From positions 1 to 35,132 of the forward strand of contig JALGSS010000004.1 of NCBI GenBank assembly GCA_029821745.1: 35,132 nucleotides of DNA, in the 5' to 3' direction. The position numbers were made by a program, and so were the translations under genes. Below, piece after piece: positions 5,915 through 30,808 of this stretch; positions within the stretch are counted from its first letter, which is position 1; every line of letters begins with the position of its first letter. The stretch comes from Candidatus Zipacnadia bacterium (lineage in GTDB: Bacteria; Armatimonadota; Zipacnadia; Zipacnadales; JABUFB01). Below the pieces are notes generated by a model. It was not told where the DNA came from. It did not search any database and was given only the letters and a program-made list of their open reading frames with translations.

Positions 5915-7900
5915 CTAGAGTCCGAAGTTCCCAAGTTCCAGTGACAGTTCGTCCGTGTCGAACGAGTAGTGCACCCCGATCTCGCGGGGCCCGAAGGACC
6001 GCGCCAACTCAAGTTCCAGGTCGTCGTAGCTGGAACTGTCATACTCGTAGTGCGTCCCTATGATACCAAACCGCCACTTGGATTTGAAGAAGTAGTCGAT
6101 CCCGACATAGCCGTACGTGTCACCCTCGGTGATGTCCCACGTACCGTTGAGGTAGGTGCTCCACAGCGTGCCGTGCGCCGTGCTGAAGTCCAATCCCAGC
6201 ATGCTGTTCGCGCCGGGACGCTGGGTGTCCCCGTTCCGGTAGCTCAGGTAGTAGTTCATCCCGAGTCGGGTGCTTCGACCCAACCGGCGGTTTACGCGCA
6301 ACTGCCCTCGAAGCTCGTTGCGGGAGTAATCAGCCGTGTCCCAACTGTACGTGTTCGAGATGCTCGGCCGCACCTTGGTGTTCTTGCCGATGCGCCACGG
6401 ATCCAGTTCGATGGAGCCGTACAGTTCGTTCTCCAGCACCCAGTCGTCGTCGAGACCGTCATACCGCCTGACCCCAAGCGACGTCCCGAGACGGAACTTT
6501 GAGTCTCCCGTCAGCCGTCGTGGGTCGGTCAGCCAGTCAGCCACTAGTCGGCGGCTCTTCTCCGCGAGCCAAGGGTCATCGTACTGCGCGCGGAAGTTGA
6601 ACCGGTACGCGTCGCCGTAATGGTAGATGCTTGCGTCAGCGAACAGGCTCCGATGGTCAGGCCAGGACACGTTCAGGAAGCCTTGGTTGTCACCGAAGAT
6701 CTTGCGCTCGTCTCGCCATTCCAGGCCCCACTCACTGCTCAACAGTCCGCCGGCCTCGATCGAGCCCTTCGCGTTCGGGCTCTCATAGGCCTCCTCCAGG
6801 GCCAGGCTCCACCCGTCACGGGCGATGAAGCTCGTCCCCGATGCGCCCCGCTGCACCTTGAGCGATCCCGACCACTTATCGCTGACACGGTAGAAGAACG
6901 GCAAGTCCACCGCCAGTCCGCCATCAGTGCTCGCCCCGACCACCTGCGTATTGCTGGTTCCGGAGTACCCCGGCAGCCCAATCACCCAGTACGGTGGGAA
7001 ACTGAATACCTTCTGAGTACCCGCATAGAGCTTCGCGTGCTTGGCGACGACCCGCTGCCCAATGAAGTACAGACAGCTTTCACAGATCAGCCACGTCATG
7101 CCCTCGCGGTCATCGCTCTGGAAGGCGTCGCTCGGCAGGTCCCACTCCGCGCCGTTCTTCTCAACCCCGTACGTGTTGAATATCACCCGCTCCACACCGA
7201 GGTCCCCAAACCGCCTCACGATCCCCCGTCCGGTGCCCAGTTCGAAGTAGACGTCCTCCCCCTCTATCGTCTCCTCCTTGCGCGTGATCCGCACGCCCCA
7301 AGCCCGAAGTGTCTGCCGCTGAATATCCACCTCAAGCCCGTCGACTGCTTCGAACAGAAGGTCTCCGAACTTCACCCTGGCCCCGTCTCGAGCACGGATG
7401 AGACTCAAGTCCAGGCAATACCCAATCCATCCCCCGTGCATGTTCACGACGCGTGCCCGCGCCTTGGCCGTCTCCCCCTCGGGCAGGAACTGTAGCGTCA
7501 CCCTCTGGCGGCTCTCCAACACTCGCACTGTCACGGTCGCGATGCCCGGCGACTCACTCAGGCAGTAGATCGTCGCGAATCCGCCCGTCGTCTCTACACT
7601 GAGCGACCGCCTGCGGTCTGTATCACTCGCCTGCAGGAGCCCATTGTCGACGGTGCAGAAGGCCTGCGTGCCATCAGGCATCGGCTGCTCGGAACGATTG
7701 CGCAGCTCAATGAGAATGCGCGCCCGGCTCTTGCCATCGGCCGGCAACGTGGTCGGGTTAGGCTTGAGCGAAATCCGCACGGCACCCGACCGAGTGTCCT
7801 GCGCCAATGCACGGCCCGGCACCAAGCCCATCGGCGCGATTGCGAGCGCCAGCAGTAGCCAGTACGCCGCAAATTTGGTGCTCCTGCGGTCTGCGAACAC
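5915..7900 (-). CDS. LptD/OstA-like outer-membrane beta-barrel protein with an N-terminal Ig-like (Big_1/invasin-type) domain
   Basis: Signal peptide (LALAIAPMGLVPGRALAQ); Ig-like segment RISLKPNPTTLPADGKSRARILIELRN...GIATVTV; OstA-like segment (VVAKHAKLYAGTQKVFSFPPYWVIGLP); then alternating beta-strand barrel to the C-terminus. GTG at 7900 with AGAAGG upstream. Confidence 0.7.
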   Translation of the reverse strand: MFADRRSTKFAAYWLLLALAIAPMGLVPGRALAQDTRSGAVRISLKPNPTTLPADGKSRARILIELRNRSEQPMPDGTQAFCTVDNGLLQASDTDRRRSLSVETTGGFATIYCLSESPGIATVTVRVLESRQRVTLQFLPEGETAKARARVVNMHGGWIGYCLDLSLIRARDGARVKFGDLLFEAVDGLEVDIQRQTLRAWGVRITRKEETIEGEDVYFELGTGRGIVRRFGDLGVERVIFNTYGVEKNGAEWDLPSDAFQSDDREGMTWLICESCLYFIGQRVVAKHAKLYAGTQKVFSFPPYWVIGLPGYSGTSNTQVVGASTDGGLAVDLPFFYRVSDKWSGSLKVQRGASGTSFIARDGWSLALEEAYESPNAKGSIEAGGLLSSEWGLEWRDERKIFGDNQGFLNVSWPDHRSLFADASIYHYGDAYRFNFRAQYDDPWLAEKSRRLVADWLTDPRRLTGDSKFRLGTSLGVRRYDGLDDDWVLENELYGSIELDPWRIGKNTKVRPSISNTYSWDTADYSRNELRGQLRVNRRLGRSTRLGMNYYLSYRNGDTQRPGANSMLGLDFSTAHGTLWSTYLNGTWDITEGDTYGYVGIDYFFKSKWRFGIIGTHYEYDSSSYDDLELELARSFGPREIGVHYSFDTDELSLELGNFGL

Positions 7901-8053: not shown

Positions 8054-9133
8054 TCAGAGTGCGATCCCCTGGAAGTAGGCCCACTGAGAGAACTTGCTGT
8101 TCGTGTAGAAAACGCGGATACGGTAGGCGTAGGAATGCCCGGTCGCGACATCGAAGTCCGCGAAACTGCGCGCCGCACGGTCGACATCGGCGCTCGCGTT
8201 TCCGGCACCGAAGAAGCTCCAGTCGCCGTCGTCCACGCGCCGCTGGATCTGGTAGCGCAGGACCTCGAACGACGTTCCGCTCGGGGCTTCCCATCGAACC
8301 CGGATCGTGTCGGTTCCTTCCGGCTCAAGGGGCTGCGGCACTGGCGGCAGCGCATCGGCGCTCGGTCCCGCGTCATCGTCCCCACCACTCTCGCTCACCA
8401 GCCATGCGATGGCCGCAATGGCGAGTACGTACGTGAGGATCTTGCGGTTCTTATGTTTCTTCTTCGGCGTGGGCGTTGGCTTCGCCACGTCACTGATCGT
8501 CGCGCCGCTCAGGACCCGCGCCACGCGGTATGCGGCCTCGCCGATCGCCTCGCGAGCCAAAGGCCGGTCGCTCCCGCGGTAACCCGGCAGCTTCCGACTC
8601 GTTCCGACCACACCGAAGGCCTGCGCGACCGCAGGCTTCGAGGACGCCTCGCCGACCTCCTCGTTGTAGTTCGCCGCCACGTCGTAGGCTTGCCCGGAGA
8701 TGATAACCTCCACCGACCGGGGTTGCTGGGTGCTCCGGTATGACTGAATGCTGGCGATCACAACAGTCTCAACATTCAGGGCGTACCCGAGCTCTACGGC
8801 GTCCGGCACACTGGTCGGCCCAGTCTGGAGCTGGGTCGCCAGCACGCGACCTTCCGCCAACGCACGCCGCACCAACGGCGACGTAGGCGAGAAGTCGGTG
8901 CATTCCAAGCCCTTGAGGTCATCAATCGACATTTGCAGTGCGTCCGTCGCGATCTTCTGCAGTTCCGGCAGTCCGCTTGAGCTCTCATCTGCGACAGCGA
9001 AGAGCAGCACCGTCCGGTTCTTTGCTCCAGCATGGGCGCTCGACAATGTGCACGGCGCCACACCCAGCAGCATTGCTGCGAGCAGAGCGTAGCTGATCGC
9101 CCGCCCATACCACCTGGTTCGGATAAGGGTCAT
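8054..9133 (-). CDS. Exported TolB-N/CsgG-like protein with internal TM helix and C-terminal fibronectin type III-like domain
   Basis: Signal peptide ending SAHA|G; TolB-N-like alpha/beta region (RTVLLFAVADESSSGLPELQKIATDALQMSIDDL); KKKHKNRK + ILTYVLAIAAIAWLV helix; FN3-like tail (IRVRWEAPSGTSFEVLRYQIQRR...GHSYAYRIRVFY). ATG at 9133 with GGGGGAAAGG upstream. Confidence 0.6.
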   Translation of the reverse strand: MTLIRTRWYGRAISYALLAAMLLGVAPCTLSSAHAGAKNRTVLLFAVADESSSGLPELQKIATDALQMSIDDLKGLECTDFSPTSPLVRRALAEGRVLATQLQTGPTSVPDAVELGYALNVETVVIASIQSYRSTQQPRSVEVIISGQAYDVAANYNEEVGEASSKPAVAQAFGVVGTSRKLPGYRGSDRPLAREAIGEAAYRVARVLSGATISDVAKPTPTPKKKHKNRKILTYVLAIAAIAWLVSESGGDDDAGPSADALPPVPQPLEPEGTDTIRVRWEAPSGTSFEVLRYQIQRRVDDGDWSFFGAGNASADVDRAARSFADFDVATGHSYAYRIRVFYTNSKFSQWAYFQGIAL

Positions 9134-9205
9134 AAAACCTTTCCCCCTTGGTATCATCTGGCCGTACGAGGGTAGCCGTGCTGTGAGTCTTGCGTCTGCG
9201 ACTGA

Positions 9206-12097
9206 CTAACGGCTGAGCTGGAACGAGCAGACCATGCTATGCTGCTCGCCGCTGAGCGGCGAACGCGCGGTCACCCGGAACACATACCTACCGCCCGGCA
9301 CTCGCGATCCGCGGGAGTTCCGCGCATCCCACATCGTCGTGTTCACGCCCGCCTGACCCACATTGTCCGTCTGGATCCGGCGGATCAGCACTCCAGAGAT
9401 GTTCCGGACTTCCAGGTCAACATTCGCATCGTTCGCGAGCGAGTACACCAACGCCACGCCGCCTCCAGCTTGCGACACACTTGCGCTCTGCACCAGTGCG
9501 CGGTCATTGCCACGCGCCCTCACAACGATCTTCAGGACGCGCGCTGCACCGTCCGAACTCGAACGGAACTCATACGAGTTGGTCGTGCGCATGTAGCGCT
9601 TTTCGCCCGTCGCTGTGTCTTCAAGCGTCGCGACGAGGTCCCTGGGCATCTTGCTCAGGTCCGGCCAGCGAACGGAGATCGGCTCTCCCGTCGCGTTCGT
9701 AGCGACGGCCAACTGCCACTCCTGCTGCTGGCTGCCGGCCTGCCTGATATCCTGCATGTACCGCGTCCCGCTGCCCGGCTCGACCATCTCAGCGGTCAAT
9801 GACACACCATCAGGGAGACACGCCGGCGGGGCCAGCACGTCGTTCCCGTCCAGGCCGTCGCTGGCGCCGGCGGCCATCCCGAAGCACCGCTTGGAGCGCA
9901 CACGTCCGCCACCGGACACTACCAGTTGCGCCTTCCAGTCGCCGACCTGCGCGACCGCCTCCGGCGCCGAACTGCTTGCTGCCCGTGTGTACAGGCTGCT
10001 GGGCTCGAACAGCAGTGTCAGGTCCTCGAAGCAGTAGACCCAGTAGCCGGAGTACGGCGCCAGCGTCACATCGCCAAGCTCCGTCTTCCACAGATACTCG
10101 TTGTCGTCGGCGTCGTACGAATAGACGGTCCCAAGGATCAACCTGCGGGCCACGGCTTCCTGCATGGTCCATTCCGAGCCGCTGCTGTCGATGATGTTCA
10201 CGCCGTCGAAGTAAGTGAGCTGCGGAAACGGCGTGCCGAGCTGGTTCCACCCTGCAGAGAGGTTTAGTGAGTATTCCCACGTCGTCGGCACAGGGCTGAT
10301 GTCATCCGGGAAGTACACGGTCTCGCGATTGCGGTTCAGCAACCAGTAACCGGAACCCGGCGTCACGTTGTTCACGAACGCATGCGGGAACCACCGGTAG
10401 ATGAGCTCGTCGGGACTCCACCGTGCCAGACCATTCGCGCCACCCACATGCATCGAGCCCAGATCGGCGAATACGTGCTCAACGCTCGTGTCCGCGAACT
10501 CGTAGGGCACAGAGACCATCTCGACCCCGAGCTGCGACGGCATCGGCGTCAGCGCCGGAATCACAGGCACCGTCATCTCACGCTCGACCGTCTTGCCGTT
10601 CGGGCCCGTAAACCGGATCACATCGACTCCCGGCCGCGCAACCGTCGCACGGAGGGTCCACTCTACGCGCCGCAGATCATTCCGGGCAAGCGTTCCCAGT
10701 GATTTGCTCAGCGACTGGGTCGGCGGGTCCAGCTCGAAGCCGTCCGGCAGGTTGATCCGCACACTGGCGTCGACGAGCGGCGACGGGCTGAAGTTGTCCG
10801 CGTACGCATAGACGGGGAATGGTGACTGGCCGTCGGTGTCAGTGAGATAGAAGCGCTCCACGATGGGCGTCCCGGGATCATCCCCCTCGCGCACCTGCAA
10901 CTTGATGGGGCTGTAAGCCGCCAGTGCGTACGGCGAATCGAAGTCAACGGAGGCAGATCCCATGCCGAAGTAGGTTACGTAGCGCCGAGACCGTCCCGCC
11001 GCCAAGTCTTCCTCGTCCCATCTCACTGCGTAGGCCCAGTCCTCGCCCTCCAGGCCGATCCCTGCGTTCGCGACGAAGTCCCACTGAGCGTCCCCACCGA
11101 TGCCCATGAGCCGGCCCCAACTGATCTCGTCAGGCTTCCCTGCGGCCGTGTTCGCCGTACCGGGGCTATAGACGTCATCGCTCTCAAGGGTCCCACCCAG
11201 CATCACGGTCGGGTTGTCGAGCCGATCAAACGCCACCCAACTGTCTGGCACGATACCGGTAACGGCGTCCGGGATCGCGCGTTCGCTGAGGATCTGCTCG
11301 CCGCTCGGGAGGACGATCGTGCCACCATCTCGGGTCCATTGGCCAAAGGAAGCATCGATCATTGGGCGGATGCCGACGGCGTGAGTCTGCCCAGTCTCAT
11401 TGCGCACGGTGTACTCCAGGCGCACTGCATCGTGCACGAGGGTCCACCGATGCTCGATGTCGATGTACTCCGTTGCGGTGTTCGGGTCAGTGGTGTCGAT
11501 CGGGATGCGCCCGATGCCCCAGATGTCTCGGGTGCCGGCCTGCGGCGGGACAGGCCAGTAGTTGATCGCCGCGCCCTGCTGCTCGTCTTCGCCCGCCCCC
11601 AGCACATGGAGGTCGTACGGCTGCCCATCCACCGAAATCGTCAGTTTCGACGTAAACTCGTCCCACGTCGGGGAATTGGTTGCCGGACCGGCGAGGCCGG
11701 CGTTGATCACGCTCGCCACGGCGCGTTTCTCGTCGCCCACCTTGATGGGGTTCCCGCCCAGAGGCGATTGCCCACCAGTCACGAGGCGGAACCGACCAGA
11801 CGGTCGCTGCCACTGCTCCACATTCGCCCCATCCAGCCAACTGAAGATGGTTGCGTCTTCCACCTGAACGGTCATCAGTCCGCCCGGGTGTGAGACCTCG
11901 ACGACGTTCCGTTGGGCGCAGACAGGCGTCAAGCCGATACCGGTTAGAATGGCAAGACTGACGCCCAGCGCGCAAATCAGGTTCCACCGGGCGAACGCGG
12001 CTCGGTTGTCCTGCACGAGTGGGTCAGCTCCTCTCGCCAGCTGCCGCATGCATGTCGTAGCTCTCTTCACTGGGCATGTATCCTTTGCAGCTGCCAT
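9206..12097 (-). CDS. Large exported protein with C-terminal tripartite module ending in a FlgD-like Ig domain
   Basis: Hydrophobic export segment (LICALGVSLAILTGIGLTPVCAQ); C-terminus SVSQAGGGVALVYSLANDANVDLEVRNISGVLIRRIQ...TMWDARNSRGSRVPGGRYVFRVTA matches FlgD-like Ig. Start uncertain (12097 or ATG at 12049). Confidence 0.75.
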   Translation of the reverse strand: MAAAKDTCPVKRATTCMRQLARGADPLVQDNRAAFARWNLICALGVSLAILTGIGLTPVCAQRNVVEVSHPGGLMTVQVEDATIFSWLDGANVEQWQRPSGRFRLVTGGQSPLGGNPIKVGDEKRAVASVINAGLAGPATNSPTWDEFTSKLTISVDGQPYDLHVLGAGEDEQQGAAINYWPVPPQAGTRDIWGIGRIPIDTTDPNTATEYIDIEHRWTLVHDAVRLEYTVRNETGQTHAVGIRPMIDASFGQWTRDGGTIVLPSGEQILSERAIPDAVTGIVPDSWVAFDRLDNPTVMLGGTLESDDVYSPGTANTAAGKPDEISWGRLMGIGGDAQWDFVANAGIGLEGEDWAYAVRWDEEDLAAGRSRRYVTYFGMGSASVDFDSPYALAAYSPIKLQVREGDDPGTPIVERFYLTDTDGQSPFPVYAYADNFSPSPLVDASVRINLPDGFELDPPTQSLSKSLGTLARNDLRRVEWTLRATVARPGVDVIRFTGPNGKTVEREMTVPVIPALTPMPSQLGVEMVSVPYEFADTSVEHVFADLGSMHVGGANGLARWSPDELIYRWFPHAFVNNVTPGSGYWLLNRNRETVYFPDDISPVPTTWEYSLNLSAGWNQLGTPFPQLTYFDGVNIIDSSGSEWTMQEAVARRLILGTVYSYDADDNEYLWKTELGDVTLAPYSGYWVYCFEDLTLLFEPSSLYTRAASSSAPEAVAQVGDWKAQLVVSGGGRVRSKRCFGMAAGASDGLDGNDVLAPPACLPDGVSLTAEMVEPGSGTRYMQDIRQAGSQQQEWQLAVATNATGEPISVRWPDLSKMPRDLVATLEDTATGEKRYMRTTNSYEFRSSSDGAARVLKIVVRARGNDRALVQSASVSQAGGGVALVYSLANDANVDLEVRNISGVLIRRIQTDNVGQAGVNTTMWDARNSRGSRVPGGRYVFRVTARSPLSGEQHSMVCSFQLSR

Positions 12098-12108
12098 TTG
12101 GCTGGGTT

Positions 12109-15100
12109 CTAGCGTCCCACCTGGAATGTCCTCACTGAGTGCGCTGCCTGACCGTCTGCCGTTCGTGCCGCCAAGCGGAGCATGTATCGCCCCGCCGGCA
12201 CTTTCACGCCGCTGTTGTTGTCCCCGTTCCAGGTCAGGGTCTGCGTAACGCCGGGTGCAGCGGCTGTCTCGCCGAGTTGCTTGATGCTGCGCCCCGCAAT
12301 GTTCAGGACCTCGGCACTCACCTGGGCCGCGCAGTTGACCGCGTAGGACAGTCGGACGGCCCCATCGGGGGCCTGCTGAGTTCTGACATTCGTCAAGACC
12401 AACGCCCTGCCGTCAGCCGGGCGCGCGGTGATCGTGAAGTGCCTCACGTCTTCCGCACTCGATGCGCGGTAGGTATAGCCGGCAACGGTCCGCATGAACA
12501 CGTCGTTGCCCCCGTCCTTGTCGGTTAGCGTGAGGACGACGCCGGCGGGTACGGTGGCGTTCAGATCAGGCCACGCGACGGTCACATCAGCGCCGGCCGA
12601 CGCACATTCAACTGTGACATCCCACTGCTGCGCCGTGCCTACGAGGCCGCGGACGTCCTTGGCGTATGCGCCGGACTGCACGCCCCAATCATCGTGTCGG
12701 ATGTAAACCTTGACCGGCGTCGAAAGCGCCGGCGGCTCAGGAACGTCACCCGCCACGTCATAGCCGTCGGTGGCTGCCGGAGCGACCCCTATGTAGTTCG
12801 CCGGGTCCTGTGCTCCCGCGATGCTCGCGCCAAACTTGAGCGTCCACGAGCTCTCGCTCGGCTTCTCCGCGGCGCTCGCAACCGGGGCCGTGGCGCCCGC
12901 TGTGATCACGCTATTGTAGACGCGTAGCGTTGTGTCTTTCAGCACGTGCACCCAGTAGCCCTCGAAGGGTTTCAGCGAACCCGCCAGGGGATCCGGGAGG
13001 AAGTCGTAGTAGAAGGAATTGCCCGCCCGCTTGAGGCCGAACAGGATCCCGTCGGTTACACCGTCATCAATCGCGTCCCTTACGTCCTGTCGCACCCCGT
13101 CTGTGATGAATTCCGCTCCGCCCCAAGTTACGGGATCGGGGAAGGGGCAGCCGATCATGTTCCAGCCGCGCGGCAACGTCGATCCCACGCTGAGCTCAAT
13201 GTCGTAGCTGACGCGGTCGGACAGGCTCCAGCCGCTCACATTCAGGATCGCCGGCGAGGGTATTCTCAGGAAGTACCCGAGCCCTGCCGGGGGATCGCTG
13301 ACCACGTATGGCGGCTCCCTTGCGTCCAGGGGCTCGAAGCTGGCGAACTGGTCCTGAACCTGAGCTGGACCGCCCCACCAGTGGTACTTGTTCCCGACTG
13401 TCGCGTCTGTCGGAAGCCATCGAACGATCGTGATGTTGCTCAGCGGCAGCCCGAAGATGACGCTAGGTCTCGAGTCGGCCAACTGGCCGAAGGGCAGCGA
13501 GATCATGTGCAACCCCGCGTCCACCGTCGGCGGCGACACGCGGAAACTCACCACGGCCTGATCCGACTTGTTGCCCTCAAAGTCGCTGACCTCCAGAGCG
13601 ATCTGGTGGCTGCTGCGACTCAATGGCTCATGGTTTGGCTGCGCGACGCGGTACGTCAGGATGCCGGTCTGAGGGTCGAACACCCAGCCGTTGAGGAGTT
13701 CGCCATCAAGTGTCAGGGCGATGCTCGTCGGCTCGACCCCACTGCCCTCGTCCGACAGGTAAGCGGTGATCACTGGTTCTGTCGTGCTGATGGTGTCGCC
13801 GCTACGAGGGTACGTGATCACACCCACCGGCTTTGCCACGTCCGTTCCCACGCGCAGGTTTACGCGGCCGTTCCCATACGTCGAGTTGGGGAGCGGCAAC
13901 TGCGTCTCAGGCGGCGGAGGCACGGCCACTGCCAGTCTGATCAGCGCGTCGACCAGTTCGCTCTTGGACCGCGTCTGGTCCTCGCTCAGCAGTACCGCGA
14001 CGGCACCGGCCACATGCGCAGCGGCGAAGGACGTCCCGAATGCGGCCGGGGAAATCCAGTCGCCACCCTCGCTGATCGGGGTGGCTCCAACGGCCTCAAA
14101 GCTGGTCCGGCAACCGTCAGGAGCAACGAGGTCGGGCTTGACTAGGCCGGACAGCGTCGGGCCGCGCGAACTGAAGGGCTCGATTACGTCGACCGCCACG
14201 GTAGCCAAGTTGTAGGGCGTCGTATCGACGTCCGAACCACGAACGGCCCCCACCGTGAAGGCCCCGGTTGCTTCGGCAGGCGTCGCGAAGCTGGACTCGG
14301 GAACTCTCAACGTGTCGGGAGCAATGTCGTAGTCAGGGATGAACAGTTGGAAATTGTCCAGTTGCAGTGGGTCCCCCGCGATCCGGTGGATCTGCACGCT
14401 GTAGACGCCGGCGGCCACTACGGCCTGCAAGCGCTCCCGGGGCGGGTCGTCACCGTTCTGCGTAACTGCGGATTGCGCAACAATGGCGCCCTGGGCGTCG
14501 GTGAGCACCAAGTCGTAGTCCTGGCCCGTCTGGGGGCCACCAGTCTCGTACCAACTCAGGTACGCGTCAACCGTGCCGGCCGTCTGCACGTCCAGGTTGA
14601 TGCCCTCCACGTTGCTGTCGAACTCGTGGACGGCATTCCCGTCGGTGTCCCGGTACGTCCCCGCCCAGTGTCGCTCGGCGAGGTTCCCGGCGGCCTGGAT
14701 CCAGAGCATCCCGGTGGCCGTCGCACTGTCGACGGCTCGGGCCAGTGAATGTGATCCGTCGTACGGGCCCTCAACGACAACCAGACCCATGACGGCGACT
14801 TCACACCCCTGCCCCGCGACGAAGTTCGCAGCCGACTCGATCGACATCGGAGTGTCCACGGCGACCAAGAGCAGGTCGGCGTCCGGGGCCATGTCCATCA
14901 CGGTCTCCGCCATGGCGGTTCCGTGTCGATTGGCGGTCGTCGATTGATCAGTGCGCAGTGAAACAACCTGTGCGCCGGCGGGGACCTCCGCATTGGCCAG
15001 GTCCGCGAAACCAAGGTCAATGATAGCGACTTTCGCCTGTGCTCCCCGGAAGCCGGCTAAGTGCATTGCGGACGCGTTGGTGCGCTGCACGGCCTCGCTG

Positions 15101-15513
15101 ACCGTCGCGCCGAAGCCCTGGCACGGGATAACTGCGGCCGGAGGCGTCACCTGCGCGACCTCGGCCAGTGCCGCGATCTCCAAAAGGCTGCTCGGAGGCA
15201 CGAGACACTGCGCTCGCACGTCGCGTCGGAATTCAACCGTCGCGCCGTATTGCGCAAGATTGATGCGATACGCGTCCGAAGGGCTCCGGAAGAGGACCTC
15301 AACTTGCACAAGGCCGGCGCTCGTCGTTCCTACGGTGCCGGCCCCGACGGTCGTCCTCCCCATTGCGGCATCGCGCAAGGGACCCGCCAAATCGTACCAG
15401 CCGGCGGGCACCTGCTCGGCGCAGACTTGCGAGGCGAACAGTAGCGTCGCCAGAACGATGAGGCTGGCCACTGGGGAGCGAAAGTAGCTGCTTCGTTGGC
15501 CGACACGTCTCAC
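12109..15513 (-). CDS. Subtilisin-like S8 serine peptidase, exported, with paralogous C-terminal module and FlgD-like Ig domain
   Basis: S8 motifs: AKVAIIDLGF (Asp), NRHGTAMAE (His), QAAGN (oxyanion Asn), FGTSFAAAHVAGAVAVLL (Ser). GTG at 15513 with GGAGGAGG 7 nt upstream; the ORF track extends to 15552. Confidence 0.85.
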   Translation of the reverse strand: MRRVGQRSSYFRSPVASLIVLATLLFASQVCAEQVPAGWYDLAGPLRDAAMGRTTVGAGTVGTTSAGLVQVEVLFRSPSDAYRINLAQYGATVEFRRDVRAQCLVPPSSLLEIAALAEVAQVTPPAAVIPCQGFGATVSEAVQRTNASAMHLAGFRGAQAKVAIIDLGFADLANAEVPAGAQVVSLRTDQSTTANRHGTAMAETVMDMAPDADLLLVAVDTPMSIESAANFVAGQGCEVAVMGLVVVEGPYDGSHSLARAVDSATATGMLWIQAAGNLAERHWAGTYRDTDGNAVHEFDSNVEGINLDVQTAGTVDAYLSWYETGGPQTGQDYDLVLTDAQGAIVAQSAVTQNGDDPPRERLQAVVAAGVYSVQIHRIAGDPLQLDNFQLFIPDYDIAPDTLRVPESSFATPAEATGAFTVGAVRGSDVDTTPYNLATVAVDVIEPFSSRGPTLSGLVKPDLVAPDGCRTSFEAVGATPISEGGDWISPAAFGTSFAAAHVAGAVAVLLSEDQTRSKSELVDALIRLAVAVPPPPETQLPLPNSTYGNGRVNLRVGTDVAKPVGVITYPRSGDTISTTEPVITAYLSDEGSGVEPTSIALTLDGELLNGWVFDPQTGILTYRVAQPNHEPLSRSSHQIALEVSDFEGNKSDQAVVSFRVSPPTVDAGLHMISLPFGQLADSRPSVIFGLPLSNITIVRWLPTDATVGNKYHWWGGPAQVQDQFASFEPLDAREPPYVVSDPPAGLGYFLRIPSPAILNVSGWSLSDRVSYDIELSVGSTLPRGWNMIGCPFPDPVTWGGAEFITDGVRQDVRDAIDDGVTDGILFGLKRAGNSFYYDFLPDPLAGSLKPFEGYWVHVLKDTTLRVYNSVITAGATAPVASAAEKPSESSWTLKFGASIAGAQDPANYIGVAPAATDGYDVAGDVPEPPALSTPVKVYIRHDDWGVQSGAYAKDVRGLVGTAQQWDVTVECASAGADVTVAWPDLNATVPAGVVLTLTDKDGGNDVFMRTVAGYTYRASSAEDVRHFTITARPADGRALVLTNVRTQQAPDGAVRLSYAVNCAAQVSAEVLNIAGRSIKQLGETAAAPGVTQTLTWNGDNNSGVKVPAGRYMLRLAARTADGQAAHSVRTFQVGR

Positions 15514-15641
15514 GTTTCTGCCTCCTCCTGGCACTTCAGCGCGCCAACACACGCCGACAATCGACCCGCGTTGTGCTCGCCATGCAATGGAACGACCTAC
15601 TGCGACTATCGGGCACGAAGGCCGACACTAAGGACGTTTCT

Positions 15642-16808
15642 TCATCCAGACCCAGGCCCGGAGGCCTGCTCGGCAATGTGTCGTAGATACATCCCGGCGA
15701 CCCGCGCCCAGCCGGTCTCTCGCGCCAGACGGCTGCTTCGTTCATAGCCCTTCGAAGTAGCCCCTGGGTCGCCCGGAAGAAACAGCGTCACCCCTGCGCT
15801 ATCATGCTCCGCCTCGCCGACCCCGGCTCGCCCGCTCGCCAACCCTTCCAAGGCGCTTCGCAACCGCTCAGCCGCCCGTCTCAACTCACTGGTCCGCGCT
15901 CTTAACACCAGGCTCGTGGCCAACCCCTCCGCGTCCACCAGTCCACACGCGCCAACGCCCGATCCAGCACTCGTCTCTGCCCACCGCAACGCTTCCAAGG
16001 CGCTCGTCTTGTCTCTCAGGGCAGCCGCACACACAGCACCCAACGCGGCCTTCGCCTCGTCGTATTTCGAAAGATCAAAGATCGTCAGCGGACACCGGGC
16101 TGTCCGCGCCCCGCGCGGCACGTCGCTGAAGCCACCGCACAGCCACTGCGTCAGCGCCGCACATTCCGTCGCGTGCACATTGCTCAACGTCGGCACCAGC
16201 CGGTCCCAGGGCAGTCCCGGGCTCGCGATTTCCCACGGCGCAGCGATCAAGTAGTCCGCCGCATCGGCCAGCTCATGCACTGTCTCCAGCCCCGCGCCAA
16301 AGCACGCTTCGAGAACCACGACGACGCAGCGCGCATCTGATTTCGGTAGTTCGTCCCTCAAGGCCTGGCCCAGTTCGCGGGCCCTCAGCCCATCCCCGCT
16401 GGGCCCCACGAGCATCCGGGCGGCGGCTTCGCGCACCTCTGAGCCGGTCCGAGCTGCCAGACCATGCCCAAGGAAGACAACCAGCAGGTTAGCCCCGCCC
16501 GCGCGATCCCTCACCCAGCGCAGAAAGCCGTTTGCGTCAGTGGCCCTAACCGGCTGCCAGCCCCTCGTTTCGTCCTCGCCGGCCGACTGCCAAACCCGGC
16601 GCGCCTCAAGCCCCTGCGTGTCGCTCAGCAGCTCGACCCCAACCGCGACGCCACTGCCGGCGCCGAGAAGTGCCTGGGCGTGCGATGCTGCGTCCTGCGC
16701 AAGATCGCCTCTGCCGTCAAGGTACGCGGCTACGGCCCATTCCTCAGCGCCACCCGCGACGCACACCACCACTCCCACTGCTGCCAACATGCGCCACAAA
16801 GCCACCAC
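15642..16808 (-). CDS. Clostripain-like cysteine peptidase (C11, clan CD), exported
   Basis: N-terminal EEWAVAAYLDGRGDLAQDA (clostripain-like W-x-V-x-x-Y-x-x-G-x-x-DL); His motif LLVVFLGHGLAA; Cys motif VVVLEACFGAGLETVHELADAADYLIAAPWEIASPGLPW. N-terminal hydrophobic segment. Confidence 0.75.
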   Translation of the reverse strand: MVALWRMLAAVGVVVCVAGGAEEWAVAAYLDGRGDLAQDAASHAQALLGAGSGVAVGVELLSDTQGLEARRVWQSAGEDETRGWQPVRATDANGFLRWVRDRAGGANLLVVFLGHGLAARTGSEVREAAARMLVGPSGDGLRARELGQALRDELPKSDARCVVVVLEACFGAGLETVHELADAADYLIAAPWEIASPGLPWDRLVPTLSNVHATECAALTQWLCGGFSDVPRGARTARCPLTIFDLSKYDEAKAALGAVCAAALRDKTSALEALRWAETSAGSGVGACGLVDAEGLATSLVLRARTSELRRAAERLRSALEGLASGRAGVGEAEHDSAGVTLFLPGDPGATSKGYERSSRLARETGWARVAGMYLRHIAEQASGPGSG

Positions 16809-16830
16809 ACTCCCCAGGCGTCGGCCCGCA

Positions 16831-18738
16831 TTACGGCCTGCGGCCGAGGGGACGCTCTCCGAAGATGCCGCCGCGATCGGACGGCTGGAGCTTCCCGCCG
16901 TCCACGGACGGGTTCACAGGCGGCAGCAGAGCTGTTCGGAACCGGAACGGCTCGCTCATTACCCAGCCACGGCTCCCGTTGCTTCGCACTAGCGGCGCCA
17001 CCTCGCCGGACGTCCTCGCACCGACGAACCAGTAGTACTCGGTGTCCGATGCCAGGGTCATGTTCAGCGCCCAGTTCATCGTCGTCGTGCTCGAAGTGCT
17101 GCTAAGTCTCGGGCTCTGCTTCACGGGGTTACCCACCGCTTGAGGGTTGTCGTAGATGAAGACCATGTACTCGTCGGCACCCAGAGAGGGCGTCCACCGG
17201 AACGTTGTTTTCCCCGCGCGCGGATCCACTGTCGAGTTCCCGTCGGATGGCGTCTCCGGCTGGCCTGGGAAGAAGAACGTCACAGGCCCGGCGGGATCGC
17301 TCGGCTCACCCAGAGACTCCGGAGGATCAATGTCGAAGCTCACGTCGACAGGTACGGGGGGCGTCACCTGCCCGCTGGCCGCCGTGGGCAGGTCGACAAA
17401 TCCCGGATCGACGATGCGTCGCAGCTTGTAGTAGTACGAGCGCCCCGCCACAAGAGGAAGATGGTTGTAGGTGATATCGACGTCGCCGTCTTCCTCCTCG
17501 CCTTCGTTGTCTAGATAGTTGAACTCAAGCTCGAACTCAAGGTCGACAGTGAATGTCGGGTCGTCCTCGAAGTTGGCCAGCTTGCCGCCCTGGACGGCTG
17601 CCACCAGGTGGTTGTTGTTGTCAACCTGCGACAGGAAACCTGCGTTTTCGCCGCGGAACACAAGCCAGGCATGGGTTTTGGTCGATCCTGGCAGGTTTCC
17701 GGGCTCCGCCTCAACTGCAATGCGTGGCTCCGATCCCGGCGCTGCCTGCGTCAGGAACACGGAGACTCCCGGCGGGCTCTGGTTGTCATCGCCCGTGGCC
17801 GTTGCATAGATTCCCGCAACGAGTCCCAACGCAGCGAGGACGCGCGTGGTCCGCTTCAGCTTCGACCTCTTCACGGCCTTCGCAATCGTGTTGCTGGGGC
17901 GGTACATCACGTAGCATTTGTCAGCAGTCCGGGGCATGCTGCCGCTCGTCAGCCTGCAGCGGCAGTCATTGATCTCTACCGCGCTGACCTCGATGACCCC
18001 AATTTTCTGGAGCACAACGCGCTCAAGGCCGGAGTTCCAGATGCCACGGACAACGAGGAGTTCCTTGCCGACCTCGACACCATCGCGCGCGCCGAGGTTG
18101 ACGACGATCGTCCCGGTGTTGTCGACCATGTCGATGTTTCCGCGGGGCGTCCGGCTGGTCTGGATAGTCCGGACGCACTGTTCCGCAGCCGACCGAAGCG
18201 CCTCGTTGATAACGGTAGCCTCTTCCCCCTGCCACCCGGGCAGCGCCCGTGTCGTATAGTCGCTGGTCGCGCCATCGAGGTACTCCTGGGTAGCGATGTC
18301 GAGCAGACGGATCGTCAGCACACATCGACCGCGGCCGCTCTTGTCGATACTCAGGTGGTCGACGGAGCCAGTCGCTACCTTCTCGACGCGCAGGTGCTCG
18401 CCCAGCCTGACCATCTGTTCCTTGGAGACGCTGTGACGCGCGGACTCCGAGGCCACAATCCCGAGCGTCTGCATCTCGCGCCGGGTATCCGCACGTGTCG
18501 ACACCACATACTCCTGCGATTCGTCGAGGGCGAGGGCAGCTGCGTCGGTGGCTTTATTGGCAGTCATCTCGCTTCCGCCTGCACGGTCGGCGAAGGGGAC
18601 AACTGCGACAGAGATCGCCTCGCTGATCTTCTGCGCATGGGCTGCGGGAACGAAGGCAGCCCACAGGCAGAGCACCAGTAGCAGCGTGGCTGTCGGCGTG
18701 ATGAAGGCATTTGCATTGCCGTGGTGCGGTCGCCGCAT
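16831..18738 (-). CDS. Exported CsgG/TolB-N-like protein with FlgT-C-like segment, internal TM helix and FN3-like C-terminus
   Basis: Signal peptide ending AAHA|Q; ISVAVVPFADRAGGSEMTANKATDAAALAL; FlgT-C-like GTIVVNLGARDGVEVGKELLVVRG...IGVIEVSAVEINDCRCRLTSG; KRSKLKRTTR + VLAALGLVAGIYATA; FN3-like WALNMTLASDTEYYWFVGAR. Confidence 0.6.
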   Translation of the reverse strand: MRRPHHGNANAFITPTATLLLVLCLWAAFVPAAHAQKISEAISVAVVPFADRAGGSEMTANKATDAAALALDESQEYVVSTRADTRREMQTLGIVASESARHSVSKEQMVRLGEHLRVEKVATGSVDHLSIDKSGRGRCVLTIRLLDIATQEYLDGATSDYTTRALPGWQGEEATVINEALRSAAEQCVRTIQTSRTPRGNIDMVDNTGTIVVNLGARDGVEVGKELLVVRGIWNSGLERVVLQKIGVIEVSAVEINDCRCRLTSGSMPRTADKCYVMYRPSNTIAKAVKRSKLKRTTRVLAALGLVAGIYATATGDDNQSPPGVSVFLTQAAPGSEPRIAVEAEPGNLPGSTKTHAWLVFRGENAGFLSQVDNNNHLVAAVQGGKLANFEDDPTFTVDLEFELEFNYLDNEGEEEDGDVDITYNHLPLVAGRSYYYKLRRIVDPGFVDLPTAASGQVTPPVPVDVSFDIDPPESLGEPSDPAGPVTFFFPGQPETPSDGNSTVDPRAGKTTFRWTPSLGADEYMVFIYDNPQAVGNPVKQSPRLSSTSSTTTMNWALNMTLASDTEYYWFVGARTSGEVAPLVRSNGSRGWVMSEPFRFRTALLPPVNPSVDGGKLQPSDRGGIFGERPLGRRP

Positions 18739-18794
18739 GACGGTCGGTTCCCTCCCAGGAGGTCTCGACTAATACCCCGGAGCAACGGCCCCGC

Positions 18795-18824
18795 AGTATA
18801 GCACACAAGTTTTCGCTTTGTAAA
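18795..18824 (-). promoter_or_regulatory. Sigma70-like promoter upstream of the 18738 gene
   Basis: Minus strand TTTACA - 18 nt - TATACT (-35 at 18819-18824, -10 at 18795-18800). Confidence 0.6.
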
Positions 18825-18925
18825 CTGCACCTGCCCCGGCCGGAGCAGTACGCCACCGGCCTTGGTAGGCTGTCAAATGCCGTCTTCCGACCCGTCTAGA
18901 ACTGGGGTCCAAGGACCCCGATTCT

Positions 18926-21900
18926 CTACCGTCCTAAGCTTAGAGGTTCGACAACTTGGGCCGCGCGCCCTTCAGCGTCTTTGGCCGTAATGCGGATAAG
19001 GTACCGGCCGCTTGGGACGCGGGTACCATGGGCGCCCAGACCGTTCCAGACCACGCTGTTGGTGCCGGCCATCTGGGGCTCGCCCGAGACGACCGAGCGA
19101 ATGCCGCGCCCGGCGATGTTAAGCACCTCGACATCGACTGCCGCGTCGTGCGAGAGCGTATAGGCGATCGCCGCCCCGCCGGGCTTCGTCTGCTGCGCGG
19201 TGACCCCAGTCACTGCCAGAGCACCGGTCGCATCGGCGGCGACGATAATATCGAAGGCACGCGGCTCATCGCCCGCACGGAAGGAGTAGCCCGTGCTTGT
19301 CCGCATGTACGTCCGCTTGGCCGTCGCCAGGTCTACCAGCACGGGCTTCACGTCGGTCGGCGCGAGACCGAGGTCGGGCCACTGGAGGGTCACATCGGAC
19401 CCCGTCTGGCTCGTGTCCACCGTCAGCCGCCAACTCGACCGGGTGTCGCCCGCCGAACGCACATCCACCGAGTGGGCTCCCTGGGGGCCGCTGCCGAGGG
19501 CCGCGTACACGTAAGGTCCGAACTCGGCCACCGGCGGCTTCGCCATGTCAAGGCCCGCATCGTGGGCGGATGATGCCCCTTTCGCAGCGCCGAAGTATGT
19601 CGACGTGTCGACCATGCCATCGACCGTGGTCCGAATGGAGGCGAGCCAGCCGTCTTCCGGCGTGCGCACAGCCGCCTTCGCTTCTGCCGGCGAGGCCAGC
19701 GTGCCTGCCTGCTCGCTGATGTAGAGCGTTAGCGCCTCGTTCGCCTTGACCCAGGTACCCACCCACGGGTTGAAGACCGCCGTGTTCTGGTAGCCGCCGA
19801 GCACGTAGGCGAACATGCCGCCGTCGATCCACCCTTCCGACAGAGCCTCGTTCATGCTCAGCGTAACGCCCACTGCGTTCTCGACCGTCGCGGAGTACCA
19901 GTCGATCAGTGAGGGGAACGGATCGCCGATGATGTTCCAGCCGGCGCCCAGAGCGATGCCGGTCGGGTCTGGCGCGGCAGCGCCCGGCAAGGTCACATCG
20001 CTGGCCGTATCAAGCATGACCCAGTATCCCATGCCAGGGCGAATCTGGTCTGCCGGTGCCTGCGGGTAGGTCCGGTATCGCTGGCGCGAGGCTTCCCACG
20101 CGGCCAGCTTCAGGCTCAAGGCCGGCGTCACGTTGAGGACCGTTGCAGCGTCGCTGCCCGTGTAGTTGTACGGGGCCGAGATCATCTGCAGACCTGCAGG
20201 GAATACGTGCAGACTATCCAGCGAGAAGTTGATGTTGGCCACTATCGCCGCACTGATCACGGTCACGATGCGTTCCGCCGGAACGGCCGTGAACCCGATT
20301 GGCGCCGGACGCACGGTCACCTGTCCGGCCGGTACATCGACGAACTGGTAGTTGTAGCCCGCCTGGCCGCCGCCGGGCTCTGTGAACGTGTCCGTGCTGA
20401 ATACCGTCTGCTGGACAACATCGTTGACCAGGAGGTCCACTCGCACGTTGCCGACCGGCGCACCCGTGGTCGCCGAGACAATCTTCCCGGTCACGGCCTC
20501 GCCGTCTTCCTCGCCCTGCAGCGCGATCCCTAGCTCTGTGGTCTGGGTCGAGGCGACCAGGGCCGTGTCTCCGTCAGAGCGCTTGTAGCCGGGGCCGCTC
20601 GCGTACACCGTGTAGGTTCCAGGCTGGATCTGCAACTCGGCCAGCCCATTGTTGTTCGTCGTCCCGGTGGCGATCACCACGCCGAGGCTGCTTTGCACTT
20701 CGACCAGCGCGGCGCCGATCCCGTCAGTCGTTTCGACATCAAGGACGGTCACGGAAAGTGCGCCATCGGCTGCGGGCAGCTTGAGGTCGAGGGTCGTCGT
20801 GCTGCCGGCGGTGATCGTTATCTGCTCCCACGCTTCGCCGAACCCGATTGTCGAGCCGTCCGCGCGCACGTAGTAGTCGCCCGGCGGCAGGTTCTCTATC
20901 TTGTAGGAGCCGTCCACAGCCGTGGACGTCGCGCCGGCCTGAACCAGATCTCCCCAGACGGGCTCCTCGCCGCTTATCTGCGCCGTGACGACGGTCCCGT
21001 CGGTATCCTCTTCTTCCTCCGGCACTTCGTAGGCGGTCACGTCGACGCGCCCGAGCGGCTCGTCAGTCGCCTCGGAGCTCACGATACCGGCCACAACGCC
21101 CGGCCGGCTGCGACTGATCGCGAAGTTCAGGATATTGGGCTCCCAGCCACCGTGGGTGAGTTCGCCGTCTCGGTGGTCGATCTCGTAGCCGGGACGGATG
21201 GCTTCCAGTGTGTAGACGCCTGACGGCACGCCCTGGAGACGGAAGCGCCCGTCGTCCTGGCAGCGCACCGCGTAGTCCGGCGTTCGGTCGCGGCTCCCGA
21301 TCGGGTTGGTGCCTGTCCAAATCAGGACCACCGGGTTGGGATCGGTAATCGGCTTGCCGTCATCGATAGCGATGACCTGCCCACGGAACCCTCCGGTGCG
21401 GGTCCAGCAAAGGACGTTGTGGATCAGGTGGCTCCGGTGGTTCTTGCAGCCGACCGTCGTGTTGTAACCACGGTGAATAGACTCGAACCCGAAGGCGAGA
21501 TAGACGGCGCGGGCCGTCGTGGTGCGGTCTTCGTACCGCACACCAGCGACGCCACCGGCGTCGTAGGAGTAGATCGGGAAGATATCCGGGCCGGTCTCGG
21601 GCCGGATCACGTCCGGGTACCATGACCAGTCGTGGGCGTCGTGGGACGTGGGGGTCGCACCGCCAGGCGCCCCTCGGTCGAAGGCGGGATTGCCCTCCGG
21701 CGTAGAGAGATCGTCAGGTTGCTCATCGCCCGGGTAGTGCCCGAAGGTCTGGGTCGTGACCGGATCGCCGCCCAGCCCGGTGAGGTCCCAACCCATGACT
21801 GCTGTCCCCGCAGCCGATAGACTGTCAGAGACGAAGCTCGCCTTCAGGTACCGCCTGAGGAAGTCGTTGCTGATCGTTCCGTTCATGGTCAGCGCCCACG

Positions 21901-24142
21901 CGATGTCCATGCCGCTGATCATGACACGCCCGCCGCGGTCCAGGAACAGGCCCAGGTCGGCCTGAGTGCCCGCGTCAACGATGGAGCCGGACGCCTGCCC
22001 GACCCAGACATCGCCGGTGTGCGGAGCAGCCCAGATGACCGCCCGGTTAGCGACCTGCACCTGTCGGCTCGGCGCAGCGTTTTCGGGGTCGTCGACGGCC
22101 TCCTGCGGCTCGAGCTGGTACTCCACCGTGGGCAAGTAATAGGTGTACACACCCGGCGGGACCGGGCCGCGGCAGATAATCCGCCACACGTCGGGATCAT
22201 CGCTCTGGACGTTGTTGCGGAAGGCGTAGCCCCAGATGCTGTGGAGATCAATGTCGCCCCAGGTCGGGGTTATCGTGTTCAGCGGCGGATTGCTGAGGGG
22301 GCTGCCATCATGGCTCGGGTTGTACAGGTAGAAGCTCTCTACATACCAGCCCGAGAAGAAGTCGTTGTTGCGCCCGAAGCCCAACTCGTAGATGAAGTGC
22401 TGGCCCTCGCAGTAATCGTTCACGAACAGCACGTTGGCTTTCGGGCTAAAGATCTCGCTCGTGAACCCGTGCAGACTGTCGTAATTCTGCCAGTTGCCGG
22501 TCACATCGAAGACAATGACGTCGATGACGAAGTCGCTGACGAGGTTCGCGGGCACAGTCCACATCCCGCCGAACATTCCGTCGCCCGCCACGGCATCGCC
22601 GTGCTGCGGGTCGCCATCGTCGAACAACTCGATGCCGGGGACAATTGTCTGGTAGTCCCACTCGTGGAATTGGACCCCATCAATGGATGTATCCCACTGT
22701 TGCGTGCCGGTCCAGGGCCGACCGTCGGGGTAGTTCGGGTCCCAAACCTTGATGTCGGGGTCCTTGATGTTAACGAAGACGCGCTCGACGCCCGTATCCT
22801 TATCGAACACGTTCACATGGAAGTAGACGTCGCTGCCGGGCGTGAACAGCCGCGCCTTGGGGGCATTCTCGTCACCGGCGGTCGTGAAGGGCAGGCCGCT
22901 GACCATTGGTGGGTCGATGTCCTGGTAGACGGTCGCCCAGATGTCCCACTCGGTGCCTGCGGCATCGGCGCGCTCAGACTCGTAGTACAGCCGCATAGGC
23001 TCCTGCGTATCGGCGGGAAGCGGCGACCAACTGGGATCGAAGTCGTCGGTCGTGTCAGTGACATCGTTGTTGGAGACTGGCTGGGCCTCGACGCCTGTCG
23101 TGATTTCGCCCACGCCATTCATGCGGTAGATGTTGTAGTCGTACTGCGTATCTCCGTCCATCAGGCGATTACTGGAGAACGCGAGGAAGGCGCCGTCCTT
23201 GCTCCAGGCGGCGTCGCGGTCGCTGGCGAGGCCGTCGCCGCGACCGTCAGTGATGGCCTCGTCATCCAGCGTGTTGGCGTCCACGCGATGGATGCGGGTC
23301 GTCGCACCGACTGTCGCGGTATAGGCGATCGCGTTGCCGCTCAGGCCTCCGGCGGCAGAGCTGTTCGGCACCCATGCGGGAGCGGTGTCGTCCGTGGGCG
23401 CGAATGTGACCTGAGTCTGCGGCAGGTCGCCGGCAACCGGAAGCGTGAAGATGTCCCAGTTGCCGTTGACATTGCACTGGTAGGCGATCGAGTTGCCGTC
23501 GGGGCTCCAGGTCGGGTGGCGCTTGTCGAAGCCCGTGGCCTGCTTATCGGTCAAACACTGGACCACGTTGGGGCTGCGCACCTCGAAGACGTAGATTTCC
23601 CAATTGCCGGTCTCATTCCCGGCATAGGCGACAACGTTGCCGCCGGGGCTGTACGAGGGCTCAATCTCGTCGCCGGGCCTGTCGGTGAGCTGAACCTGCT
23701 CCGAACCGTCCGGGCGCATGATCCAGATATTGTAGTCGGCGACGAAGGTGGGGTCCTCGGGGAAAGTCGGGTCGATGCGAGCATCTGCGTCTTCATCCAC
23801 GCCGTTGCTGCTGAAGACAACGCGGTTGGTCAAGACACTGGGCGAGCCGTTCGGGTCGCGCTCCTGCGAGACCTCCGCAGTGGGCGTGAGGTCGGTGTCG
23901 GGTACCGGCCCAGAGCCCTGGGCCGTGCCCACGCGCCCGGGGCGTGGGGGCAGGAACTCCCCGATATACTGGTGGTGGCTCACGCGCCCCAGAGCGTCGT
24001 AGTGCGCAGTCGAGGCGCCACCAATCGGCGCGAACGGCGCGGATGTGGCATCAACGGCGAACGTTAGCCCTGCACAGACGGCCAGCGCAACCAGCAGTGG
24101 GATGCCCAAGGATCGGGCGTGGCCCTTGTGCAACACGATCAC
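18926..24142 (-). CDS. Giant (~1738 aa) exported protein: PD40/TolB-like beta-propeller repeats, carboxypeptidase-regulatory-like repeats, C-terminal tripartite module with FlgD-like Ig domain
   Basis: Repeats IWIMRPDGSEQVQLTDRPGDEIEPSYSPGGNVVAYAGN, RHPTWSPDGNSIAYQCN, DRDAAWSKDGAFLAFSSN; CarboxypepD-reg-like VDGSYKIENLPPGDYYVRADG; C-terminal LNIAGRGIRSV...VPSGRYLIRITAKDAEGRAAQ. AAGGAG better matches the GTG at ~24136 than the one at 24142. Confidence 0.8.
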   Translation of the reverse strand: MIVLHKGHARSLGIPLLVALAVCAGLTFAVDATSAPFAPIGGASTAHYDALGRVSHHQYIGEFLPPRPGRVGTAQGSGPVPDTDLTPTAEVSQERDPNGSPSVLTNRVVFSSNGVDEDADARIDPTFPEDPTFVADYNIWIMRPDGSEQVQLTDRPGDEIEPSYSPGGNVVAYAGNETGNWEIYVFEVRSPNVVQCLTDKQATGFDKRHPTWSPDGNSIAYQCNVNGNWDIFTLPVAGDLPQTQVTFAPTDDTAPAWVPNSSAAGGLSGNAIAYTATVGATTRIHRVDANTLDDEAITDGRGDGLASDRDAAWSKDGAFLAFSSNRLMDGDTQYDYNIYRMNGVGEITTGVEAQPVSNNDVTDTTDDFDPSWSPLPADTQEPMRLYYESERADAAGTEWDIWATVYQDIDPPMVSGLPFTTAGDENAPKARLFTPGSDVYFHVNVFDKDTGVERVFVNIKDPDIKVWDPNYPDGRPWTGTQQWDTSIDGVQFHEWDYQTIVPGIELFDDGDPQHGDAVAGDGMFGGMWTVPANLVSDFVIDVIVFDVTGNWQNYDSLHGFTSEIFSPKANVLFVNDYCEGQHFIYELGFGRNNDFFSGWYVESFYLYNPSHDGSPLSNPPLNTITPTWGDIDLHSIWGYAFRNNVQSDDPDVWRIICRGPVPPGVYTYYLPTVEYQLEPQEAVDDPENAAPSRQVQVANRAVIWAAPHTGDVWVGQASGSIVDAGTQADLGLFLDRGGRVMISGMDIAWALTMNGTISNDFLRRYLKASFVSDSLSAAGTAVMGWDLTGLGGDPVTTQTFGHYPGDEQPDDLSTPEGNPAFDRGAPGGATPTSHDAHDWSWYPDVIRPETGPDIFPIYSYDAGGVAGVRYEDRTTTARAVYLAFGFESIHRGYNTTVGCKNHRSHLIHNVLCWTRTGGFRGQVIAIDDGKPITDPNPVVLIWTGTNPIGSRDRTPDYAVRCQDDGRFRLQGVPSGVYTLEAIRPGYEIDHRDGELTHGGWEPNILNFAISRSRPGVVAGIVSSEATDEPLGRVDVTAYEVPEEEEDTDGTVVTAQISGEEPVWGDLVQAGATSTAVDGSYKIENLPPGDYYVRADGSTIGFGEAWEQITITAGSTTTLDLKLPAADGALSVTVLDVETTDGIGAALVEVQSSLGVVIATGTTNNNGLAELQIQPGTYTVYASGPGYKRSDGDTALVASTQTTELGIALQGEEDGEAVTGKIVSATTGAPVGNVRVDLLVNDVVQQTVFSTDTFTEPGGGQAGYNYQFVDVPAGQVTVRPAPIGFTAVPAERIVTVISAAIVANINFSLDSLHVFPAGLQMISAPYNYTGSDAATVLNVTPALSLKLAAWEASRQRYRTYPQAPADQIRPGMGYWVMLDTASDVTLPGAAAPDPTGIALGAGWNIIGDPFPSLIDWYSATVENAVGVTLSMNEALSEGWIDGGMFAYVLGGYQNTAVFNPWVGTWVKANEALTLYISEQAGTLASPAEAKAAVRTPEDGWLASIRTTVDGMVDTSTYFGAAKGASSAHDAGLDMAKPPVAEFGPYVYAALGSGPQGAHSVDVRSAGDTRSSWRLTVDTSQTGSDVTLQWPDLGLAPTDVKPVLVDLATAKRTYMRTSTGYSFRAGDEPRAFDIIVAADATGALAVTGVTAQQTKPGGAAIAYTLSHDAAVDVEVLNIAGRGIRSVVSGEPQMAGTNSVVWNGLGAHGTRVPSGRYLIRITAKDAEGRAAQVVEPLSLGR

Positions 24143-29895: not shown

Positions 29896-30015
29896 GGTGG
29901 CACCTCTCGGGTCGCTGGAGGTTGCGCCGTCGGGCCTCCCAGCGCCTTCTTTCGTGATGCGCTCTGACTGAATCACTTCGCCCCGGCGGGGCAATCTCCT
30001 GCCGGTCGGGGACGC

Positions 30016-30733: not shown

Positions 30734-30808
30734 GGGCGCTTAGTTCAGGGGGAGAACGCCACCTTGACACGGTGGAGGTCAGTGGTTCAAATCCACTAGC
30801 GCCCACCA
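30734..30808 (+). tRNA. tRNA-Val(GAC), CCA encoded
   Basis: Cloverleaf: acceptor GGGCGCT/AGCGCCC, D stem GTTC/GAAC, anticodon arm CCACC-TTGACAC-GGTGG (anticodon GAC), T arm AGTGG-TTCAAAT-CCACT, then A+CCA. Confidence 0.95.

Follow-up and report, generated by a model that had tools for sequence, protein, structure and literature searches.

A three-part C-terminal module of exported Armatimonadota proteins, a candidate docking or address module related to the sorting domains of type IX secretion

Three predicted exported proteins (W6, W7 and W10) encoded in the window, by which we mean the whole 35,132-nucleotide stretch of Candidatus Zipacnadia bacterium DNA analysed here, share a real and homologous C-terminal module of approximately 430 residues. 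We regard this shared C-terminus, with slightly better than even confidence, as a candidate docking or address module of exported Armatimonadota proteins. On the best reading of the sequences, it would be a tag related to the C-terminal domains (CTDs) of the type IX secretion system (T9SS) that is read by an envelope machine other than a recognisable T9SS. The module consists, in this order, of a duplicated domain with GWN and GYW motifs (Di), a beta domain with WPDL and YMRT motifs (Dii) and a FlgD-like Ig domain (Diii). The three genes and the domains of their modules are located as follows:

9206..12097, minus strand: W6, predicted exported protein of 963 aa, N-terminal part without known domain (Pfam), C-terminal module
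9998..10528, minus strand: Di of W6, residues 524-700
9512..9943, minus strand: Dii of W6, residues 719-862, beta domain with WPDL and YMRT
9209..9487, minus strand: Diii of W6, residues 871-963, FlgD-like Ig domain ending in FQLSR-COOH
12109..15552, minus strand: W7, 1147 aa, subtilisin-like S8 protease with Asp, His and Ser motifs present, followed by the module
12913..13515, minus strand: Di of W7, residues 680-880
12412..12852, minus strand: Dii of W7, residues 901-1047
12112..12396, minus strand: Diii of W7, residues 1053-1147, ending in FQVGR-COOH
18926..24142, minus strand: W10, 1738 aa, TolB-type propeller and carboxypeptidase-regulatory repeats, followed by the module
19709..20194, minus strand: Di of W10, residues 1317-1478
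19232..19657, minus strand: Dii of W10, residues 1496-1637
18929..19216, minus strand: Diii of W10, residues 1643-1738, ending in LSLGR-COOH

The C-terminal regions of W6, W7 and W10 (441, 469 and 423 aa, respectively) can be aligned from end to end, with 28–31% identity in pairwise BLASTP comparisons (E = 1e-33 to 2e-55) and alignment scores 55–87 SD higher than those of shuffled sequences. An initial annotation, made from the letters of the window, had proposed that the three C-termini align in order, which these comparisons bear out, and every motif that it quoted was found in its place. Its coordinates are right for the C-terminal parts, whereas the full genes are longer and occupy the minus-strand intervals listed above. 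Domain Di is itself a tandem duplication of a unit of ~80 aa (hhalign probability 94.7, P 6e-8). The assignment of a FlgD-like Ig domain as the third part agrees with Pfam, where Diii of all three proteins matches FlgD_ig (PF13860) at 28.9–36.6 bits; Di and Dii have no consistent Pfam match across 71 diverse module members. The N-terminal portions are unrelated, as had been proposed: Pfam assigns an S8 peptidase to W7 (1.3e-15) and a PD40 propeller (1.7e-15) with carboxypeptidase-regulatory repeats (1.5e-22) to W10, and finds no known domain in W6 outside FlgD_ig. Each of the three proteins has a Sec-type hydrophobic N-terminal segment, as judged by hydropathy only.

AlphaFold2 models the module with confidence (pLDDT 94.7). 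Among solved structures, FlgD and PorU were matched by sequence with the module profile, with a weak match to PorZ (E 0.2), and FlgD and PorZ were matched by the fold of the model, with a weaker match to PorU. Diii is thus like the Ig-like domain of FlgD in domain family and fold, whereas the proteins that it terminates are large and exported and are not hook-cap proteins; only the Ig part of FlgD is matched in the window proteins, in which no FlgD N-terminal region was found, and this sets them apart from the hook-cap protein.

Named relatives of the module assign the window to Armatimonadota, close to the Zipacnadia/WS1 lineage. It comes from a fragmented MAG (7.0 Mb in 1168 contigs, 88% complete, 6.6% contamination), and both the locus and the tails are also found in other genomes that are much less fragmented. 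The module is not confined to the three genes, since an HMM built for it gave 20 matches in the source genome and matched 113 of the 121 genomes of the phylum. The source genome has further passengers, among them two additional subtilases, a protein with dockerin and Big_5, proteins with carboxypeptidase-regulatory repeats and one with PD40. Full-length modules in this genome end 0–2 residues before the stop. Among the 96 full-length modules at phylum loci that have a stop codon in the sequence, the module end coincides with the stop in 58 and lies at most 13 residues from it in 95; the full module is therefore C-terminal and not internal. Of 87 module proteins at these loci, 69 have a strongly hydrophobic stretch close to the N-terminus, compared with 20% of other ORFs.

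The initial annotation viewed the three proteins as passengers of one C-terminus. The passengers are indeed unrelated, but the proteins are also conserved members of one phylum-wide locus. The regions around the W9 gene were compared in 34 families, in some of which some genes were not found, and the gene order across the phylum is W10-W9-(W8)-W7-W6-W5-W4. Module genes lie at most three ORFs from W9 and on the same strand in 38 of 46 loci, representing 30 of the 34 families. Besides the module genes, the locus in the window comprises:

5915..7900, minus strand: W4, invasin-type Ig domain and predicted OstA/LptD-like outer-membrane beta-barrel
8054..9157, minus strand: W5, CsgG/LpoB-like domain, TM segment and Fn3; a weak relative of W9
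15642..16808, minus strand: W8, cysteine protease of the clostripain-like (C11) type, predicted to be exported, with His and Cys motifs present but lacking the module
16831..18738, minus strand: W9, CsgG/LpoB/TolB_N-like domain, SH3-like (TsaP-like) domain, TM segment and Fn3

W9, encoded by 117 of the 121 genomes of the phylum, has weak matches to TsaP and LpoB among solved structures when compared by sequence. The protease slot represented by W7 is occupied by S8 enzymes in most families, by C11 enzymes in two and by M6 enzymes in three, and one family has a C39-like enzyme there; these enzymes of unrelated folds all carry the same C-terminal module. Among the loci read, the C11 gene stands alone only in the taxonomic order to which the source genome belongs and is fused to the module in two families (f19 and f30); this clostripain-like protease (W8) and PorU belong to the same peptidase clan. 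W6, W7 and W10 probably belong together in a single surface assembly, for which the conserved W10-W9-(W8)-W7-W6-W5-W4 locus would code. Such an assembly would bring together the propeller protein, W6 and a protease that can be exchanged, along with an LptD-like barrel and two periplasmic proteins of the CsgG/LpoB-like type. Elsewhere, the window also encodes a GH106-like protein (27052-29994; PF17132, 56.8 bits) and a tRNA gene (30734-30805).

Within the module, only Diii varies as a tag would. A C-terminal arginine was found in 67 of 72 Ig-tailed locus proteins and in 34 of the 308 remaining ORFs at these loci (Fisher 2e-42, computed ignoring relatedness), and the module paralogues of the source genome end in arginine too. 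The presence of Diii is all-or-none per genome, every uncut locus protein of one genome being in agreement. It is present in 22 families, and in eight families (f7, f10, f11, f20, f21, f22, f25 and f34) the proteins end after Di or Dii. The pattern extends to genes outside the locus: for FlgD_ig domains sampled among the best matches listed, the position was exactly C-terminal in 22 of 28 cases from six genomes with Diii versus 0 of 12 from eight genomes without it (Fisher about 3e-6, for samples that are not phylogenetically independent). The remaining six of the 28 domains are internal, so the FlgD_ig fold alone is not a tag in these genomes. In the W9 tree the lineages without Diii fall in three or four places, and the number of independent events is uncertain because the well-supported branches force only one change. 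Concerted gain or loss of Diii over many genes is the expectation for a tag read by one machine, and a purely structural domain would predict neither this nor the C-terminal arginine. The suggestion in the initial annotation of a secretion or attachment signal is thus favoured by a genome-wide, strictly C-terminal occurrence on unrelated passengers, by the terminal arginine and by the all-or-none behaviour of Diii; a T9SS as the reader of the tag, considered below, is not supported.

A structural role without any address function, in which Di-Dii-Diii is a rigid stalk or a protein-protein interface placed C-terminally by a habit of domain shuffling, is an unlikely alternative. Stalks are commonly built from Ig and beta domains, and the proteins of the locus are plausibly one complex. 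Moreover, Di is retained in lineages without Diii, where orthologous proteins evidently manage without the Ig domain, which fits a structural add-on as well. However, this alternative leaves unexplained the excess of C-terminal arginine, the uniform state of Diii within each genome and the corresponding pattern among genes elsewhere in these genomes. At four loci from Capsulimonadales and an unclassified Armatimonadota (L046, L047, L051 and L052), the proteins stop straight after Di, with neither Dii nor Diii.

The closest known counterpart of the proposed tag is the type A CTD of the T9SS (TIGR04183 / PF18962), which is likewise Ig-like, located at the extreme C-terminus and attached to unrelated Sec-exported passengers including proteases, and Diii is related in sequence to the PorU and PorZ tails. 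The module proteins indeed combine a Sec-type N-terminus (by hydropathy only) with a C-terminal Ig-like CTD on varied passengers. On the other hand, the Armatimonadota tail ends in arginine after a hydrophobic strand (hhh-x-R), whereas T9SS-type modules end in K-x-hhh-x, and Diii is preceded by two further unnamed domains. In the TIGR04183 model, for which the cut-off is 23 bits, the three window tails reach at most 15.4 bits in the Ig domain, and seven further Armatimonadota tails reach at most 22.9 bits or have no score. In contrast, related modules from SprA-bearing Latescibacterota pass this cut-off (35.2 and 24.1 bits), as do those from a Lindowbacteria genome.

We searched 46 genomes with the profiles SprA_N (PF14349) and PorV (PF19572). 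Among these were 37 Armatimonadota (several of them single-contig) and four named Armatimonadota-related records, of which at least one seems to duplicate a member of the 37. Neither SprA nor PorV was found in any of the 37 phylum genomes or the four named records, whereas both were detected in control genomes of other phyla, namely, two Latescibacterota and one further genome. With TIGR04189, a model for the SprA/Sov translocon, the score in the source genome is 16 bits, compared with a cut-off of 200. In both Latescibacterota, PorV adjoins a C25 peptidase; peptidases of this family are sporadic in Armatimonadota, and no PorU-PorV pair, i.e., a C25 peptidase beside PorV, was seen there. The source genome encodes one gingipain-type C25 peptidase (1e-57; G000:C729:1095-2234, L131), with no PorV or SprA found in that genome. 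The GldM model for the PorL/PorM motor had no match anywhere, including the SprA-positive controls. The T9SS, to whose sorting domains the initial annotation had likened the module, was rejected as the tag reader on the absence of SprA and PorV from all Armatimonadota genomes tested.

The module is rather improbable as an ordinary type IX cargo domain served by a translocon too diverged for the models used. The matches of Diii to the CTD regions of PorU and PorZ, the T9SS-type scores of the Latescibacterota modules and the scattered C25 peptidases speak for such a translocon, but the same SprA_N and PorV models match in distant phyla and in no Armatimonadota genome tested, the three window tails and the seven further Armatimonadota tails stay below the cut-off or unscored, the last strand is unlike, and the PorU-PorV pair was not seen. 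In Bacteroidota, T9SS CTDs contain a secretion signal together with a targeting signal, the latter being read by PorV or PorP/SprF shuttles (PMC12618676), which makes a related Ig tag with another reader plausible.

Another known sorting system, PEP-CTERM/exosortase, resembles the proposed tag in placing a C-terminal signal on many exported proteins and occurs in most of these genomes. Unlike PEP-CTERM proteins, the module proteins show neither a PEP motif nor a TM helix nor a basic tail in the C-terminal sequences inspected. An exosortase scores over the cut-off in 32 of 42 Armatimonadota genomes, with 0–69 PEP-CTERM matches in each. Two PEP-CTERM ends in Diii-less lineages suggested that this signal might substitute for the Ig tag; the idea was rejected, as the counts of the two are uncorrelated (Spearman 0.05, P 0.74, 42 genomes). 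The source genome itself has an exosortase (G000:C116:7916-8680, L235) and several PEP-CTERM proteins (G000:C806, C279, C508 and C1038).

The putative barrel protein W4 shares with LptD an OstA-like part and a barrel, and the ten best PDB matches of its model in the fold search are all LptD (pLDDT 67.7, moderate). It differs from LptD by its N-terminal invasin-type Ig domain; by sequence, only invasin/Ig matches were obtained among solved structures. No Pfam LptD match over the cut-off was found in 42 Armatimonadota, so the LptD assignment of W4 is one of fold only. W9 and usually W4 are also encoded in families without the module at the locus (f23 and f29) and in Diii-less families; their distribution does not track Diii, and they are thus not specific to the tag. 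Even in the module-less loci, W4 and W9 adjoin, forming an unnamed phylum-wide envelope gene pair. That the locus itself is a secretion machine, with W4 and W9/W5 translocating the adjoining module proteins, is very unlikely: the neighbourhood is conserved across the phylum, the fold matches of W4 point to LptD, and barrels of the LptD type have a lateral opening at the outer membrane, but the cargo of LptD is lipid and not protein, the W4 model has only the above pLDDT, and W9 and W4 occur without the tag.

Returning to the preferred reading, a tag related to T9SS CTDs but served by another envelope machine, proteins ending in Di-Dii-Diii would first be exported by Sec. A shared envelope machine, not a recognisable T9SS in that SprA and PorV are lacking, would then recognise the Diii end, i.e., the last strand and the C-terminal arginine, and would move the protein to, or fasten it at, the outer membrane or the cell surface, with Di and Dii serving as a stalk or dock. 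More tentatively, we suggest that Armatimonadota may possess a so far undescribed pathway for outer-membrane export or anchoring. Its signal would be a FlgD/T9SS-like Ig domain with arginine as the last residue, and it would need neither the translocon nor the shuttle of the T9SS; one ancient C-terminal Ig signal would then have been put to two uses, in T9SS CTDs and in this tag. In the literature outside most subscription journals, we found no description of such an Armatimonadota tag or of a coupling between FlgD and T9SS sorting.

If this proposal is true, Armatimonadota would deliver proteins to the outer membrane by machinery that nobody has named, and it would become apparent how T9SS signals are related to C-terminal Ig tags as a broader class. 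The lineages with and without the tag provide a natural experiment, in which the gene for the reader is expected to be present in the 22 families with Diii and absent from the eight without it, and hence may be searched for.
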